From Metallococcus carri (GTDB lineage Bacteria > Actinomycetota > Actinomycetes > Actinomycetales > Dermatophilaceae), in assembly GCF_011440275.1 (NCBI RefSeq), contig NZ_JAAOIV010000004.1:1-64000 (forward strand): 64,000 nucleotides of DNA, written 5' to 3'. This document shows positions 527-39,199 of the stretch, piece by piece (the stretch's first letter is position 1; each line of letters starts with the position of its first letter). A program made the position numbers and the translations under genes. Below the pieces are notes generated by a model. It was not told the origin of the DNA. It searched no databases and worked only from the letters and a program-made list of their open reading frames with translations.

Positions 527-710
527 GTTTCTATTCTAGCTGCCCGGTGTGACATTGTCAGCGTTTTTCACAGGGTTTATTTACGCTGAGAGCGAACATT
601 CGAGGCTGTCAGTGGTGCCGGTTAGCGTGGTCCCGTGTGTGCTTCTTGACGGCCGCCACCGGCACCCAATTCCGGAACGACAGAACCTCCGCCCGAAGGG
701 CCGGGAAGTG
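527..710. other. Intergenic spacer before the repeat array
   Basis: Non-coding by inspection. It holds the TAGAAT promoter element of the leftward DUF222 gene at 533-538. No RNA gene or convincing reading frame was seen; the short open frames here lack codon bias and family motifs. Confidence 0.4.
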
Positions 711-1460
711 GTCGCTATCACCGCCACATTCCTCTACTACGGATGTAGAGCACGCGAGGCGAGCTCACGGCAACCGGATCAGCAGACAGGCAGGCAGGTA
801 GGTAGGTAGGCAGTCCGGCAGGCAAGCACTGAGCTCGCCGACGACGACTGCCGGATCGACCGGCCCAGCAGCCATCCGCTTTGGACCTACACGGCTCGGC
901 GTTCTGGCCCCGCCCTCGGGAGTCGCCACTGCGGCGGGCGGGCGGACGAGGTGGCAGGAGCACGACGAGAGGGGTCGCTATTACCGCCGGATTCCTCTAC
1001 TACGGGTGTAGCGAACGCGAGGCGATCTCACGGCAGCCGGATCGGCAGGCAGTCCGGCGGCCAGGCACCGAGGCTGCCGACGACGACTGCCGGATCGACC
1101 GGCCCAGCAGCCATCCGCTTTGGACCTACACGGCTCGGCGTTCTGGCCCCTCCTCCCGGGAGTCGCCACTGCGGCGGGCGGCCGGACAAGGTGGCGGGGG
1201 CACGACGCAAACTCGTCGCTATAACCGCCACATTTCTCTACTACGGATGTAGGGCACGAGAGGCCATCGCCAGTCGACCAAAACTCGCCGCTCGGCCGGT
1301 GGTTGGTGCCCGCTCGGGCGACGACAACTCGCCGCTCGATAACTCGCGGGGAACGAGAAGTCGGCGAAGGAGAGGCCGACGCAACACGAAACAGTCACAC
1401 CCGAGAATGTGGTCGCGATAACCGCCGGATCCCTCTACTACGGACGTAAAAGCGGCAGGC
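711..1460. repeat. Tandem array of four diverged units sharing a ~38-bp hairpin core
   Basis: Four copies of a core (GTCGCTATnACCGCC, about 10 variable bases, CTCTACTACGGATGTAG) start at 711, 974, 1215 and 1412, so the units are about 263, 241 and 197 bp long plus a truncated fourth. The first core contains a perfect hairpin CTCTAC-TACGGAT-GTAGAG (732-750); later copies keep a 3-4 bp stem. Between cores, units 1 and 2 share a 75-bp exact block (837-911 and 1076-1150) and further similar sequence. Unit 1 also has a small tandem GGTA/GGCA run near 786-811. No credible protein is encoded. Function unknown: structured RNA, binding-site array, or decayed mobile repeat are all possible. Confidence 0.75.
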
Positions 1461-1538: not shown

Positions 1539-2213
1539 TCAGTCGGTGAGGTCGTCGACCGCGTCGCCGACCTCGTCGGCCATGGCGGAGGCCTGCTTGC
1601 GGTGGCGCCACCACTCGATCAGCATCGGCACGATCGACAGGAAGACGATCACGAGGATCGCGATGTCGATGTTCTTGCCGAGGCCGGGGAAGGCCTTGCC
1701 GAGCGAGGCGCCGAGCGCGACGACGAGGGCGACCCAGAGCACGGCGCCGACCGCCGACCAGGTGAAGAACCGCTTGCGATCCATCCGCGAGACGCCCGCG
1801 ACGATGGTGATGAACGTACGCACAACCGGCACGAACCGCCCGATGACCAGCGCCTTGTTGCCGTGCTTGTCGAAGAACGCCGACGTCTGTTCGAAGTACT
1901 TCTTCTTGAGGATCCGGCCGTCCCGCTCATAAAGGGGAGCACCGACGGCCCGGCCGATCTCGTAACCGACCACATTGCCGGCGAAGGCCGCCACGATCAG
2001 CGCCGGCACCGACACGAACAGCGGCACGTCGAACCCGGTGTCGGTCACCGAGAACAGCCCGATCGCGAACAGCAACGAGTCGCCAGGCAGGAACGGGAAG
2101 AACAAGCCACACTCGATGAAGACGATCGCGAGCGACACCCAGAAGAACGCACCCCCGAACTGGGCGAGCAGTTGGTTGGGGTCCATGAACCACGGGCCGA
2201 GGGAGTGCATCAC
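1539..2213 (-). CDS. DedA family membrane protein (VTT domain)
   Basis: A 224-residue integral membrane protein. Family marks are FLPGDSLL (residues 41-48), the G-N-x-x-G-Y-x-x-G-R segment (79-88) and GRFVPVVRTF followed by an Ala-Gly (125-140), the Arg-containing re-entrant motif of DedA/SNARE-associated proteins. About five hydrophobic segments are visible. Known relatives take part in undecaprenyl-phosphate or phospholipid flipping and envelope homeostasis; the substrate here cannot be read from sequence. It is transcribed alone on the minus strand, between the repeat array and the DinB gene. The first of two adjacent Met codons was used; Met at 2210 or 2183 are alternatives. Confidence 0.9.
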   Translation of the reverse strand: MMHSLGPWFMDPNQLLAQFGGAFFWVSLAIVFIECGLFFPFLPGDSLLFAIGLFSVTDTGFDVPLFVSVPALIVAAFAGNVVGYEIGRAVGAPLYERDGRILKKKYFEQTSAFFDKHGNKALVIGRFVPVVRTFITIVAGVSRMDRKRFFTWSAVGAVLWVALVVALGASLGKAFPGLGKNIDIAILVIVFLSIVPMLIEWWRHRKQASAMADEVGDAVDDLTD

Positions 2214-34175: not shown

Positions 34176-36242
34176 ATGTCGATCACCGCACCGACCGACC
34201 CGGCCAGCACCGATGGTGCTGCCCGGGAGCCGGTGAGTGTGCACGCCGCCGGTGGGATCGGAGCCGAGTCCACTGGTGCGCGGGAGTTCATCGAGTCGGT
34301 GCTTTTCGAAGACGGGCTGCCGGCGGCGATGGAGGTGGCGACCGACCCCGAGGTTGCCGGGATGCGCGGGTTTGACCTGGTTGAGGTGCAGTTGGCCGCG
34401 ATCAGCGTGCTGACCCGTAACGTGTTCGACCGGTTGAGTGAAGCCAACCCGTTCGCCCCGGGTGCCCCGGACCGGTTTTTCGCTGACACTGAGGTGCCGA
34501 CCGACCCGCGGGCGGGGGTGCCGGACGCGTTCGCTGCGATGCCGGAGTCATTGCTGGTGTCGGCTGGGGTGTTGAGTCCGCAGCAGGCGGCTGAGGTGGA
34601 GCGGTCCAACCGGTTGCGACAGCGGTATCTGGCGACGGTGGCGGCGGCGCATGCGGTGGCTCAGCAAGCCTTGGCGGTGCGGGCGCGGGCGGTGGCCCGG
34701 TTTGCCCGGTTTGATCAGGCTGACCCGGCGGATCATTCCGCGGCGGGGGTGCTGGGGCCCACGGTGGAACACCCGGTGGGGTATCAGGCAGCGTTGGCGC
34801 ACGAAGAGGTCGGTCCCGCCCTCGGGCTGGGTGATTATGAGGCTGGTGGCTTGATCGAGGATGCTGCGCTGGTCACCGCCCGGTTGCCGCGGGTGTTGGA
34901 GCAGGTCGGTGCCGGTGAGGTGAATTGGGCGACCGCGACCACCCTGGGCAGGGAGGTTGCTGATGCGCGCCCGGAGACCTGTGAGCAGGTGGAGGACCTG
35001 ATCTTGCAGCGGGGTGTGCAGTATCGGGCGCGTAGTGTGGCCCGCCGTTCGGCGCGCACGTTGGTGGAGCGGTTGGAGGCTTCGGCGGCGCGGCGGACGA
35101 AGAAGCGCACCCAAGCGCAGCAGACCGGGGTGTGGTTGGACCCGCACTCGGTGCCGGGGTTGGCGTTGCTGACCGCGGCGATGCCGACCGCGCAAGCAGC
35201 AGCGTTGAGGGACGCGGTCGAAGCGCGTGCTGCCGCCCGGAGGCTGGAGTACGCCAGTACCCCCGGTGGTGACCCGTACACCTTGGGGGAGCACCGGGCC
35301 GCGGCGTTGTTCGAACTCGCGATGCATAACGTGTCCCTGACCGTGCACGTGGACGTGCTCAAACCCCAGGCGGCGTGCAACACCTTCACCCCCGAAACGC
35401 CAGATGCCGCAAGCGATGTCACTGCCAACGCCACCGAGGATGCCACGGACGTCACCGAGGATGCCACGGATGGCACGACCGACACCGACACCGCCTCCGA
35501 CGCTGACGCTGACGCTGACGCCACCGAGGATGCCGCGGATGTCACGACCGACACCGCCACCGCCACCGACGCTGACGCTGACGAGGGTGACGGCGCGGCG
35601 GAGGCCACGGGCAGCGAAACGGCAAGCACCGCTGCTGCGGGTGACCAGCGTCCTGGCACGGCCACGGCCAACGAACCCAACGAGGTCGGCGAAGTCGACG
35701 AGGTCGACGAGGTTGCTTCGCCTGGTGGTGTTGGTCCGGAGGAGGTGGTGCAGCATCCGACGGCGGGGCCGATCACCGGGAGTGATCTGGCCGAGTTGAT
35801 CGGGCACCCGGCGTTCACGGCGTCGAAGGTGACGACCAGTCACCGAAATTTCGACGCGGGCGACTACCGCCTGGACGATCAGGCGATCAGTAAGTCGTAT
35901 CGGCCGCCGGAGTCGATGCGGGAGCGGGTGAAACGCCGGGACCAGCGGTGCCGGTTCCCCGGGTGCACGCGCGGGGCGAGGTTTACCGACCTGGATCATG
36001 TGGTCGCGTGGCCGCAGGGTCCGACGGCGGACTGGAACCTGCAATGTTTGTGTCGGCGGCATCACCGCACCAAACAATCCGGGTGGTCAGTCACGATGAC
36101 CCCGGGTGGCCGGTGCACCTGGACCAGCCCGGCCGGTCGGGTGTACGTGACCTGGCCAGGGTTGCTGGAAACCTACTGGGACACCACCGAACCCAGCACC
36201 GACACCAGCGACCCGGACGCCATCAACCCGGACACCAGCTGA
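34176..36242 (+). CDS. DUF222-HNH endonuclease (REP13E12-like)
   Basis: 688 residues. DUF222 region about 20-390 (EFIESVLFEDGLPAAMEVATDPE, SVARRSARTLVERLEASAARRTKKRT), then a low-complexity acidic stretch of Asp/Ala/Thr repeats (residues ~410-530: DATDVTEDATDG type), and a C-terminal HNH nuclease: DQRCRFPGCTRGARFTDLDHVVAWPQG with two zinc Cys, then NLQCLCRRHHRTK. The family includes the M. tuberculosis REP13E12 proteins. The start ATG at 34176 is 7 nt after TAGAAT, so leaderless. In-frame residues upstream (from 34005) read through repeat sequence and are not part of the protein. Flanking inverted repeats and short repeats suggest mobility or repeat-mediated gene conversion. Confidence 0.88.
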   Translation: MSITAPTDPASTDGAAREPVSVHAAGGIGAESTGAREFIESVLFEDGLPAAMEVATDPEVAGMRGFDLVEVQLAAISVLTRNVFDRLSEANPFAPGAPDRFFADTEVPTDPRAGVPDAFAAMPESLLVSAGVLSPQQAAEVERSNRLRQRYLATVAAAHAVAQQALAVRARAVARFARFDQADPADHSAAGVLGPTVEHPVGYQAALAHEEVGPALGLGDYEAGGLIEDAALVTARLPRVLEQVGAGEVNWATATTLGREVADARPETCEQVEDLILQRGVQYRARSVARRSARTLVERLEASAARRTKKRTQAQQTGVWLDPHSVPGLALLTAAMPTAQAAALRDAVEARAAARRLEYASTPGGDPYTLGEHRAAALFELAMHNVSLTVHVDVLKPQAACNTFTPETPDAASDVTANATEDATDVTEDATDGTTDTDTASDADADADATEDAADVTTDTATATDADADEGDGAAEATGSETASTAAAGDQRPGTATANEPNEVGEVDEVDEVASPGGVGPEEVVQHPTAGPITGSDLAELIGHPAFTASKVTTSHRNFDAGDYRLDDQAISKSYRPPESMRERVKRRDQRCRFPGCTRGARFTDLDHVVAWPQGPTADWNLQCLCRRHHRTKQSGWSVTMTPGGRCTWTSPAGRVYVTWPGLLETYWDTTEPSTDTSDPDAINPDTS

Positions 36243-37900: not shown

Positions 37901-39199
37901 TCAGCGCTTTGAGGAATCCCAGTGGCGGAAGCCACCAATCTTGGCGGTCTCCTCGTCCTTGAAGTAGACCTCGGCCTCGGTGTGCTCGTAATCGGGCGAG
38001 TCCGGGGTGTGGAAGAGCATCGTGTCGGCGTTGCCCTTGATCCAGCCCGCCGGGCCGGAGCCGTCGTCGTTCGGCATGGCCGATCCGGGGCCGAAGGGAC
38101 CGTCGCCGGCCGCCTCGTCGGGTGCCTGCGGTTCAGCGGCGTATGCCGACGCGGTCGGTGACGGCTGCGCGGTGTCGGCCGTCGACGGCTGCGCGGTGCT
38201 GGAGTCGAGGTCCTCGAGCGCCGGGGGCGGGGTAGCCCAGTCGTCACCGCCGGTGGGTGCGGGCTCGGTCTTGCCCGTGGACTCGGCAGGTTCGGTCTTG
38301 GCGAGGTCCGGCTTCGCCGGTGCAGCGGGGGTCTCCTGCTGGGTCGCGGCCGGTTCCGAAGGTGCCTTGTCGAGGTCGTCCAGGGCTGGGGGCGGGGTGG
38401 CCCAGTCGTCGCCGCCGGTGGGTGCGGGCTCGGTCTTGGCCGTGGACTCGGCAGGTTCGGTCTTGGCGAGGTCCGGCTTCGCCGGTGCAGCGGGGGTCTC
38501 CTGCTGGGTCGCGGCCGGTTCCGAAGGTGCCTGGTCGAGGTCGTCCAGGGCTGGGGGCGGGGTAGCCCAGTCGTCGCCGCCGGCGGTGGGTGCGGGCTCG
38601 GTGGGTTTCGACGCGCTCGCTCCTTCGTCGCTCGCTTGCTCAACCGGCGAGGTGGAGGTGTCGTCGAGGGCGGGTGGGGGTGCGTCCCAGTCGTCGCCGC
38701 CAGTGCTGGGTGCAGGTTCGGTCTCGGCGGCGGGTTTCGACGCGGCGGCTCGTTCCTCGCCGCCTTGCTCAACCGGCGAGGTGGAGGTGTCGTCGAGGGC
38801 GGGTGGGGGTGCGTCCCAGTCGTCGCCGCCAGTGCTGGGTGCAGGTTCGGTCTCGGCGGCGGGTTTCGACGCGGCGGCTCGTTCCTCGCCGCCTTGCCCT
38901 TCGGCACGCGCTCCTTCGTCGCGCTGCTCAGGACGACGCTCAACCGACGATGGCTTCTCAACCGGCGCGGGTGAGGACTTCTCAACCGGCGTGGGGGAGG
39001 ACTTCTCAGCCGACGATGGCTTCTCAACCGGCGTGGGCGACGCTTCCTCGCGTCGCAACTGCTCGGCCTGGACACCGACCTTCTGCTTGCCCTCGACCCC
39101 GTGGATGCCGACCGAACCACCCCGCTGCGGGTCGCGCAGGAAGATCACGAGCAACAGCGCGATGATGATGAGCACGAGCACCAGGACCAGGTAGATCAC
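37901..39199 (-). CDS. Membrane-anchored repeat protein with C-terminal sunset domain
   Basis: 432 residues. One N-terminal transmembrane helix (YLVLVLVLIIIALLLVIFL), a basic turn RDPQRGG, then a disordered Pro/Ala/Glu/Thr-rich region of five repeats of GGDDWA/DxPPPALDD alternating with QETPAAPAKPDLAKTEPAEST. The last ~45 residues (GWIKGNADTMLFHTPDSPDY, AEVYFKDEETAKIGGFRHWD) match the sunset domain of channel accessory proteins (ArfC type). Three stretches of the repeats are translated copies of the GGTTTCGACGCG...GCTCAACC element (38604-38645, 38733-38774, 38862-38945), giving VEQASDEGASASKP and VEQGGEERAAASKP. The coding repeats at 38648-38776 and 38777-38904 are near identical. Confidence 0.78.
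   Translation of the reverse strand: MIYLVLVLVLIIIALLLVIFLRDPQRGGSVGIHGVEGKQKVGVQAEQLRREEASPTPVEKPSSAEKSSPTPVEKSSPAPVEKPSSVERRPEQRDEGARAEGQGGEERAAASKPAAETEPAPSTGGDDWDAPPPALDDTSTSPVEQGGEERAAASKPAAETEPAPSTGGDDWDAPPPALDDTSTSPVEQASDEGASASKPTEPAPTAGGDDWATPPPALDDLDQAPSEPAATQQETPAAPAKPDLAKTEPAESTAKTEPAPTGGDDWATPPPALDDLDKAPSEPAATQQETPAAPAKPDLAKTEPAESTGKTEPAPTGGDDWATPPPALEDLDSSTAQPSTADTAQPSPTASAYAAEPQAPDEAAGDGPFGPGSAMPNDDGSGPAGWIKGNADTMLFHTPDSPDYEHTEAEVYFKDEETAKIGGFRHWDSSKR
38604..38645. repeat. Short palindromic element inside coding sequence, copy 1
   Basis: 42-bp element (starts GGTTTCGACGCGCTCGCT, ends TTGCTCAACC), same family as those around the HNH gene. Read in the sunset gene frame it encodes VEQASDEGASASKP without a stop. 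Confidence 0.75.
38733..38774. repeat. Short palindromic element inside coding sequence, copy 2
   Basis: 42-bp element ending TTGCTCAACC, in frame, encoding VEQGGEERAAASKP; variant inner sequence (GCGGCGGCTCGTTCC). Confidence 0.72.
38862..38945. repeat. Composite short palindromic element inside coding sequence, copy 3
   Basis: 84-bp composite of two elements, aligning along its length to the 83-bp composite at 33544-33626 (reverse complement), including the GCGACGAAGGAGCGCG centre. In frame it encodes VERRPEQRDEGARAEGQGG and then the copy 2 peptide. Shows that this repeat family moved or was copied into a gene. Confidence 0.74.

Follow-up and report, generated by a model that had tools for sequence, protein, structure and literature searches.

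Array at the contig end

The window, that is, the whole stretch of 64,000 nt that was analysed, comes from a draft assembly of the genome of Metallococcus carri and begins within a DUF222-HNH gene. The features at this end are listed in Table 1. The HNH part of the gene's label refers to a motif that we take to be present, Pfam supporting DUF222 only, and a full-length copy of the gene found elsewhere in the genome (L052) matched DUF222 (1.6e-13) with no further Pfam label. In BLASTN searches, pieces of the truncated gene were 85–98 % identical to sequences on contigs C1, C17 and C22.

A repeat search of the window recovered a core of 41 bp in four copies, all in register and spaced 263, 241 and 197 bp apart, and copies 2–4 share 85–90 % identity with copy 1. 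Both this arrangement and a 75-bp block said to be identical in units 1 and 2 had been reported in the original prediction, and the block is exactly 75 bp long. The absence of coding support was also confirmed; G+C content by codon position over the open frame of the array is flat (0.64/0.70/0.64), compared with 0.62/0.40/0.93 in the neighbouring DedA/VTT gene. The description of the core as a conserved hairpin did not hold. All 6 pairs of the stem, which encloses a 7-nt loop, are formed in copy 1, but 5, 5 and 4 of the 6 in copies 2, 3 and 4, and because the stem is perfect in the first window copy only it cannot be called conserved. Sequence resembling linker B is also found in the DUF222 units on C17 and C22. 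The distance from the stop codon of the DedA/VTT gene to element 4 is 89 nt and, unlike most members of the family described below, the window copies are not near any stop codon. Further into the window, at 35448–35583 and 38204–38897, are tandemly repeated stretches whose periods (69, 165 and 129 bp) are each divisible by three.

Table 1. Features at the left end of the window
Feature	Position	Strand	Basis
DUF222-HNH gene, N-terminal part, cut by contig start	2..526	-	ORF
REP-like element copy 1, 41-bp core	708..748	+	repeat search, profile
75-bp linker block of ~250-bp tandem unit	837..911	.	identical to 1076-1150
REP-like element copy 2	971..1011	+	repeat search, profile
75-bp linker block, second copy	1076..1150	.	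identical to 837-911
REP-like element copy 3	1212..1252	+	repeat search, profile
Linker B	1275..1338	.	20-nt direct repeats 1275-1294 and 1319-1338
REP-like element copy 4	1409..1449	+	repeat search, profile
DedA/VTT-domain gene	1539..2213	-	ORF; Pfam VTT_dom 3.1e-21

Size and distribution of the family

A BLAST search with positions 700–1000 of the window found 43 places in the M. carri genome. A 25-base pattern with up to three mismatches allowed matched 69 times, the reversed control giving 0, and the same pattern at the same stringency had no match in 37 relatives, each from a different genus than M. carri. The original prediction had proposed that copies be counted across the genome; a profile built on 75 copies (cut-off E up to 0.05) gave 91 matches, and the array belongs to a family found across the genome. 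The 41-bp core has the majority sequence GCGGTCGCTATAGCCGCCGGATTCCTCTACTACGGGTGTAG. The figure of 91 was reached by two differing rules, both of which count head-to-head palindromes twice, and because such palindromes are read on both strands the 91 copies correspond to 79 distinct centres (38 in the sister genus; score thresholds 30 for M. carri and 24 for the sister genus). The 91 copies as read make up 46 clusters, of which 20 are single, 16 are double and 10 contain three to six units. Hence, the assignment of the four array copies to a dispersed REP-like repeat family is well supported.

When the M. carri profile was applied to 119 genomes of the family, three matched, namely M. carri and two members of a sister genus (g10). 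A second profile, built from the g10 copies, matched 18, 28 and 2 times across the three g10 genomes examined, and in a draw of 396 genomes of the order the matching genomes were again M. carri and two of g10. No related form was found in either draw outside M. carri and g10, under stricter filters, such that weak matches are lost. The exact core pattern, which fits the M. carri form and not that of the sister genus, had no match in GTDB-220 species genomes and viral contigs, a collection from which M. carri records were possibly excluded. Judged by homologues of the DedA protein, M. carri is nearest to Flexivirga (best 76 %), followed by Luteipulveratus and Dermacoccus (72 %).

Sequence and arrangement of the units

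Read in the sense of the adjoining gene, the unit is 5'-CTACACCC-GTAG-(TAGAGGAATCC)-imperfect palindrome around TATA-3'. GTAG forms the foot of the hairpin, and CTACACCC, which adds eight further conserved bases, lies outside it, so GTAG is not terminal. The tag, read as CTAC on the other strand, is kept in 83 of the 91 M. carri copies and in 41 of 45 in g10. For the string CTACTACGGATGTAG, a BlaI/MecI-type operator was considered as a candidate. Neighbouring units are arranged head-to-head in 15 M. carri pairs (12 of them at an offset of 21, which represents one palindrome in both readings) and in seven g10 pairs, and tail-to-tail in nine and six pairs, respectively. Head-tail pairs form the commonest M. 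carri class (21/45 neighbour pairs).

Position relative to genes

The M. carri clusters sit between called genes or overlap the end of a gene by at most about 15 nt, and a single g10 match (L192:3005) is within a gene or abuts one. The genes were called with a codon-usage script and not with a standard annotator, and start positions as well as short genes are open to error; the IMPDH gene at one M. carri locus (L034), for example, was called in pieces. Counting only clusters with both neighbours called, which excludes four M. carri clusters and one g10 cluster at sequence edges, 29 of 42 in M. carri and 29 of 31 in g10 are no more than 20 nt from a stop codon, compared with about 10 % of random intergenic placements (404/4000 in the window and 436/4000 in the g10 samples). 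The tail, the side with GTAG, is turned toward the stop codon in 28 of the 34 close M. carri copies and in 20 of 36 in g10. Nine M. carri copies and two g10 copies share exactly 12 nt with the end of a gene; TAG is the codon at that place in each of the 11, the TAG of the element being the stop of the gene. The commonest tail encodes the last codons CTA-CAC-CCG-TAG (Leu-His-Pro-stop).

Convergent gene pairs hold 15 of 42 clusters in M. carri and 14 of 31 in g10, compared with 593/4000 and 506/4000 random placements. This excess favours an explanation in which the palindromes are transcription terminators, often bidirectional, that are kept between convergent genes and spread by gene conversion, not transposition. 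Such an explanation is possible, though we lean against it. Termination would not call for arrays of as many as six units or for the copies placed upstream of DUF222 genes.

Pairing and RNA folding

The two genera differ in the palindrome itself. In g10, 79.2 % of the cells in a central stem of 12 pairs around the TATA centre are paired, and 47 cells are changed on both sides, compared with 24.2 (sd 6.0) in shuffled alignments, none of 500 of which reached this value; versions of the stem slid along the element had 8 to 19 doubly changed cells. At one site common to two g10 genomes (L189/L191), the two stem arms differ in concert. The same 12-pair stem in M. carri had 38 doubly changed cells against 35.8 in shuffles (168/500 as high), which is no covariation beyond the shuffled level, and over the inner eight pairs double changes were fewer than in shuffles (17 against 28.4). 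A covarying central stem was rejected for M. carri on this evidence. The M. carri palindrome is nonetheless recognisable when set against slid versions (61.9 % paired against 28–49 %), and at its two variable centre positions 48 of 85 copies carry the non-complementary combination TC/CG, complementary combinations being limited to eight.

The stem named in the original prediction, CTCTAC/GTAGAG, fared differently in the two genera when the covariation check proposed there was made, with a slight excess of doubly changed cells in M. carri (4 against 1.4; 13 of 500 shuffles as high) and no excess over shuffles in the sister genus. Its outer two pairs fail to form in 41 and 39, respectively, of the 79 M. 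carri copies. With these pairs often open and the sister-genus signal absent, it was rejected as a family-wide structure.

Predicted folding of the 60 nt behind element-bearing stop codons followed the same division. In g10, the mean z was -6.37 behind tail-faced stops (n=18), compared with -1.90 for 150 controls (p 9e-7), and -3.09 behind head-faced stops (n=17, p 0.07). In M. carri, tail-side gene ends gave -0.60 (n=25) against -0.89 for controls (n=73, p 0.84) and the two head-side gene ends also folded as controls, while folding was strong at four gene ends where elements point in both directions (z -2.95). The suggestion that the repeats are structured RNAs was therefore not upheld for M. 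carri, where the proposed stem is frequently open and RNA behind most element-bearing stops folds no more than controls. The arms of a palindrome can be corrected by processes acting on DNA, and because of this the covariation in g10 is not on its own proof of a function as RNA.

These data bear on termination in both directions. Strong folding behind the tail-faced stops of g10 and at the four two-way gene ends of M. carri speaks for terminators, as do the sites next to guaB-family and SURF1 genes that are filled in both genera (see below). Against them, the remaining M. carri gene ends fold as controls and the centre keeps its mismatches. At least four T residues within the 6-nt window past the head end were seen in nine of 91 M. 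carri copies and in 18 of 45 in g10, where the stem arm, whose own sequence is TTTCC, raises the count.

Were the repeats a family of independent, structured small RNAs, the covariation of the g10 stem would be accounted for. We consider this highly improbable, as the copies are mostly at the 3' ends of genes, folding at most M. carri gene ends does not differ from controls, and no Rfam family at the gathering score covered the elements in the window or at 20 element loci. The Rfam scan did find a ZMP/ZTP riboswitch (L011:310-391, minus strand, 51.9 bits).

The retained mismatches would suit a further explanation, raised in the original prediction as a protein-binding array, in which the elements are binding sites of a chromosome-organising or regulatory protein that recognises a linear, asymmetric 41-bp motif, often at a spacing of about 58 bp. 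The prevalence of the TC/CG centre and the spacing of 56–60 bp in 11 M. carri head-tail pairs agree with this, and so does the chromosomal distribution in the sister genus. All 11 loci of genome G341 are at 0.07–1.38 Mb of 3.53 Mb, around the point at about 0.7 Mb where negative GC skew gives way to positive, and 19 of the 20 loci of genome G365 fall in the arc from 3.16 to 1.21 Mb. In both genomes the loci occupy one arc of some 40–45 % of the chromosome, probably around the origin. However, the origin was placed from a coarse set of 20 GC-skew samples per genome, with noise that is greatest in G365, and the bias was recognised post hoc. Placement behind stop codons and the use of TAG as a stop would not be expected of a binding site, and the g10 stem has compensatory changes. 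We therefore regard protein-binding sites as unlikely.

Occupied, empty and shared sites

Some sites that are filled in one genus are empty in the other. At 412 kb on C12, M. carri has 146 bp with two elements between genes and G365 has 25 bp and no element, and the protein preceding it ends in ATSLHP*, encoded by the element, in M. carri and in AAREA* in G365. Other occupied/empty pairs are L012 against G341, L041 and L062 against G365 and, with the element in the sister genus, L220 of G365 against G341. The occupied/empty reading covers L012, L029, L041, L062 and L220 out of the orthologous pairs found, among which are also L024, L035 and L060. Because sites filled in one genus are empty in the other, the family disperses or turns over. 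Gain or loss at each individual site is a direction that we infer.

Other sites are shared between the genera. One is between two IMPDH-family (guaB-family) genes (L034 in M. carri, L222 in G365) and the other is on both sides of one gene adjoining SURF1 (L026 in M. carri, L183 in G341). Sites common within g10, in addition to L189/L191, are L225/L218 and L184/L195. The last of these, between genes for GMP synthase and a sugar transporter, has a head-to-head palindrome in one g10 species and a tail-to-tail arrangement in the other.

DUF222-HNH units and the search for a transposase

At least four similar copies of the DUF222-HNH gene are present in the M. carri genome, and units with two to four upstream elements are found at C1:249 kb, at C17:285 kb, at the window end of C18 and at the end of C22. 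Mutual similarity of the C1, C17 and C18 units stops at or near the last element (copy 4 in the window), and that of the C22 unit continues into linker sequence. Contigs C18, C22 and C4 (G000:C4:129763-130053) end within a DUF222-HNH gene, which seems to break the assembly.

The original prediction had also entertained repeats that simply lie beside a DUF222-HNH gene. This is true of the window but is an incomplete account, as only 12 of the 91 copies belong to the four DUF222 units. Conversely, five of the seven M. carri DUF222 matches above the cut-off lack an element in the flanks examined, none was found at 29 DUF222 loci in other genomes (the best of those found), and no homologue of the DUF222-HNH gene at E 1e-15 adjoins the elements of the sister genus. 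The gene was consequently rejected as a general partner of the element. Some flanks among the 29 foreign loci carry other direct repeats that are not the REP-like element; in one genome of a different genus (L089, G313) a 55-bp direct repeat with a spacing of 168 bp is in the upstream flank of the DUF222 gene.

RAYT transposases were sought with the Y1_Tnp model (PF01797), which had no match in the draft M. carri genome, and a RAYT partner was accordingly not found there. In the family draw PF01797 matched in four of 119 genomes, each less than 90 % complete and none of them a known carrier of the element. G341 and G365 would likewise lack a Y1 gene, judging from their absence among the matches listed for this draw, which equals in size the one searched with the M. 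carri profile.

With no Y1 transposase detected in M. carri, the DUF222-HNH protein might itself be the mobiliser, in a REPtron-like unit with an HNH nuclease in place of the RAYT transposase. Four units at separate loci, each with two to four upstream elements and three ending their similarity near the last element, are in keeping with such a role. Yet the element-free DUF222 loci in M. carri and elsewhere, and the lack of a homologue beside the sister-genus elements at the threshold used, argue against it, and one history of duplication accounts for all four units. We consider it very unlikely that this protein mobilises the family.

Comparison with known repeat families

The element fits a known kind, the GTAG-tagged REP elements, and is not a new class of RNA. 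GTAG REPs have been described as short palindromic repeats in which GTAG stands at the base of the hairpin, occurring as singletons or as head-to-head, tail-to-tail and, rarely, head-tail dimers. They lie behind genes and, where these are convergent, often <20 bp from the stop codons; the TAG within the tag doubles as a stop codon (PMC3733652). In that account some families are limited to one species or genus, and in what has been described a RAYT gene is often, not always, present. The M. carri element resembles them as reported in being short, extragenic and present in many copies, in its head-to-head and tail-to-tail pairs, in its location behind genes and in the use of TAG as stop. Hence, the view that the repeat matched no described family does not hold as to kind. 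It differs from the published description in the eight additional conserved bases outside GTAG, in a stem of 12 pairs in g10 where 6–9 are given for most (PMC3733652), and in the commonness of head-tail pairs in M. carri, which are rare there. In M. carri, moreover, no RAYT gene was detected and the stem is imperfect. The host differs too; GTAG REPs are described mainly from gamma-Proteobacteria, and the word actinobacterium does not appear in the main text of that paper, its host figure aside (PMC3733652).

The E. coli REP/BIME sequences, served by TnpA-REP, are similar in having an imperfect palindrome preceded by GTAG and in forming mosaics of alternating units, and the mismatches retained in their stems are reported to be needed by the transposase (PMC8266576). 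The sequence is a different one, however, M. carri has no detected Y1 transposase, and most positions of the g10 stem pair. With the REP13E12 repeats of Mycobacterium, as described in PMC10589994, M. carri shares a DUF222-HNH gene as the repeated unit; the M. carri unit has in addition an upstream array of the REP-like element, the comparison covering the gene and not any arrays of REP13E12.

RepRanger predicts REPs widely in bacteria and archaea, and its table includes Arthrobacter, Acidipropionibacterium and Acidimicrobium, all Actinomycetota, with counts in the thousands (PMC12306157). As these predictions exist for three species, REP-like palindromes are in themselves no novelty in Actinomycetota. 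The predicted counts vary with genome size and G+C content, none of the three species is from the group of M. carri, and the likeness is one of description, not of sequence. No description of the present family was found in the literature searched, which does not prove that there is none.

Origin and possible role

Taken together, we think it probable that the 41-bp core is the unit of a dispersed REP-like extragenic family whose spread, role at 3' ends and history in the window were as follows. Spread was likely through a REP transposase (RAYT/TnpA-REP) that processed single strands and has since been lost or came from outside. Once in place, an element would become part of the 3' ends of mRNAs and would probably be passive or act as a weak 3'-end element; according to PMC12306157, lowered translation has been reported for REPs <16 nt from a stop codon. 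In the window, a cluster of elements upstream of the DUF222-HNH gene probably expanded in units of about 250 bp and was copied, together with the gene, to the at least four loci at which copies are observed.

A more radical version appears improbable to us, namely that REPs of Actinomycetota spread without RAYT/Y1 proteins and by other machinery, possibly DUF222-HNH, and that one genus gave up pairing and kept the linear sequence, the sequence and not the folded strand being what is recognised.

REPs are thought to depend on RAYT proteins, and here a REP-like family is found in an actinobacterium in which no RAYT is detectable. A multi-copy DUF222-HNH unit is shown to carry REP-like arrays. 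M. carri and the sister genus, in which the element still pairs, lend themselves to a comparison directed at the role of the hairpin and at the agent that moves the repeats.
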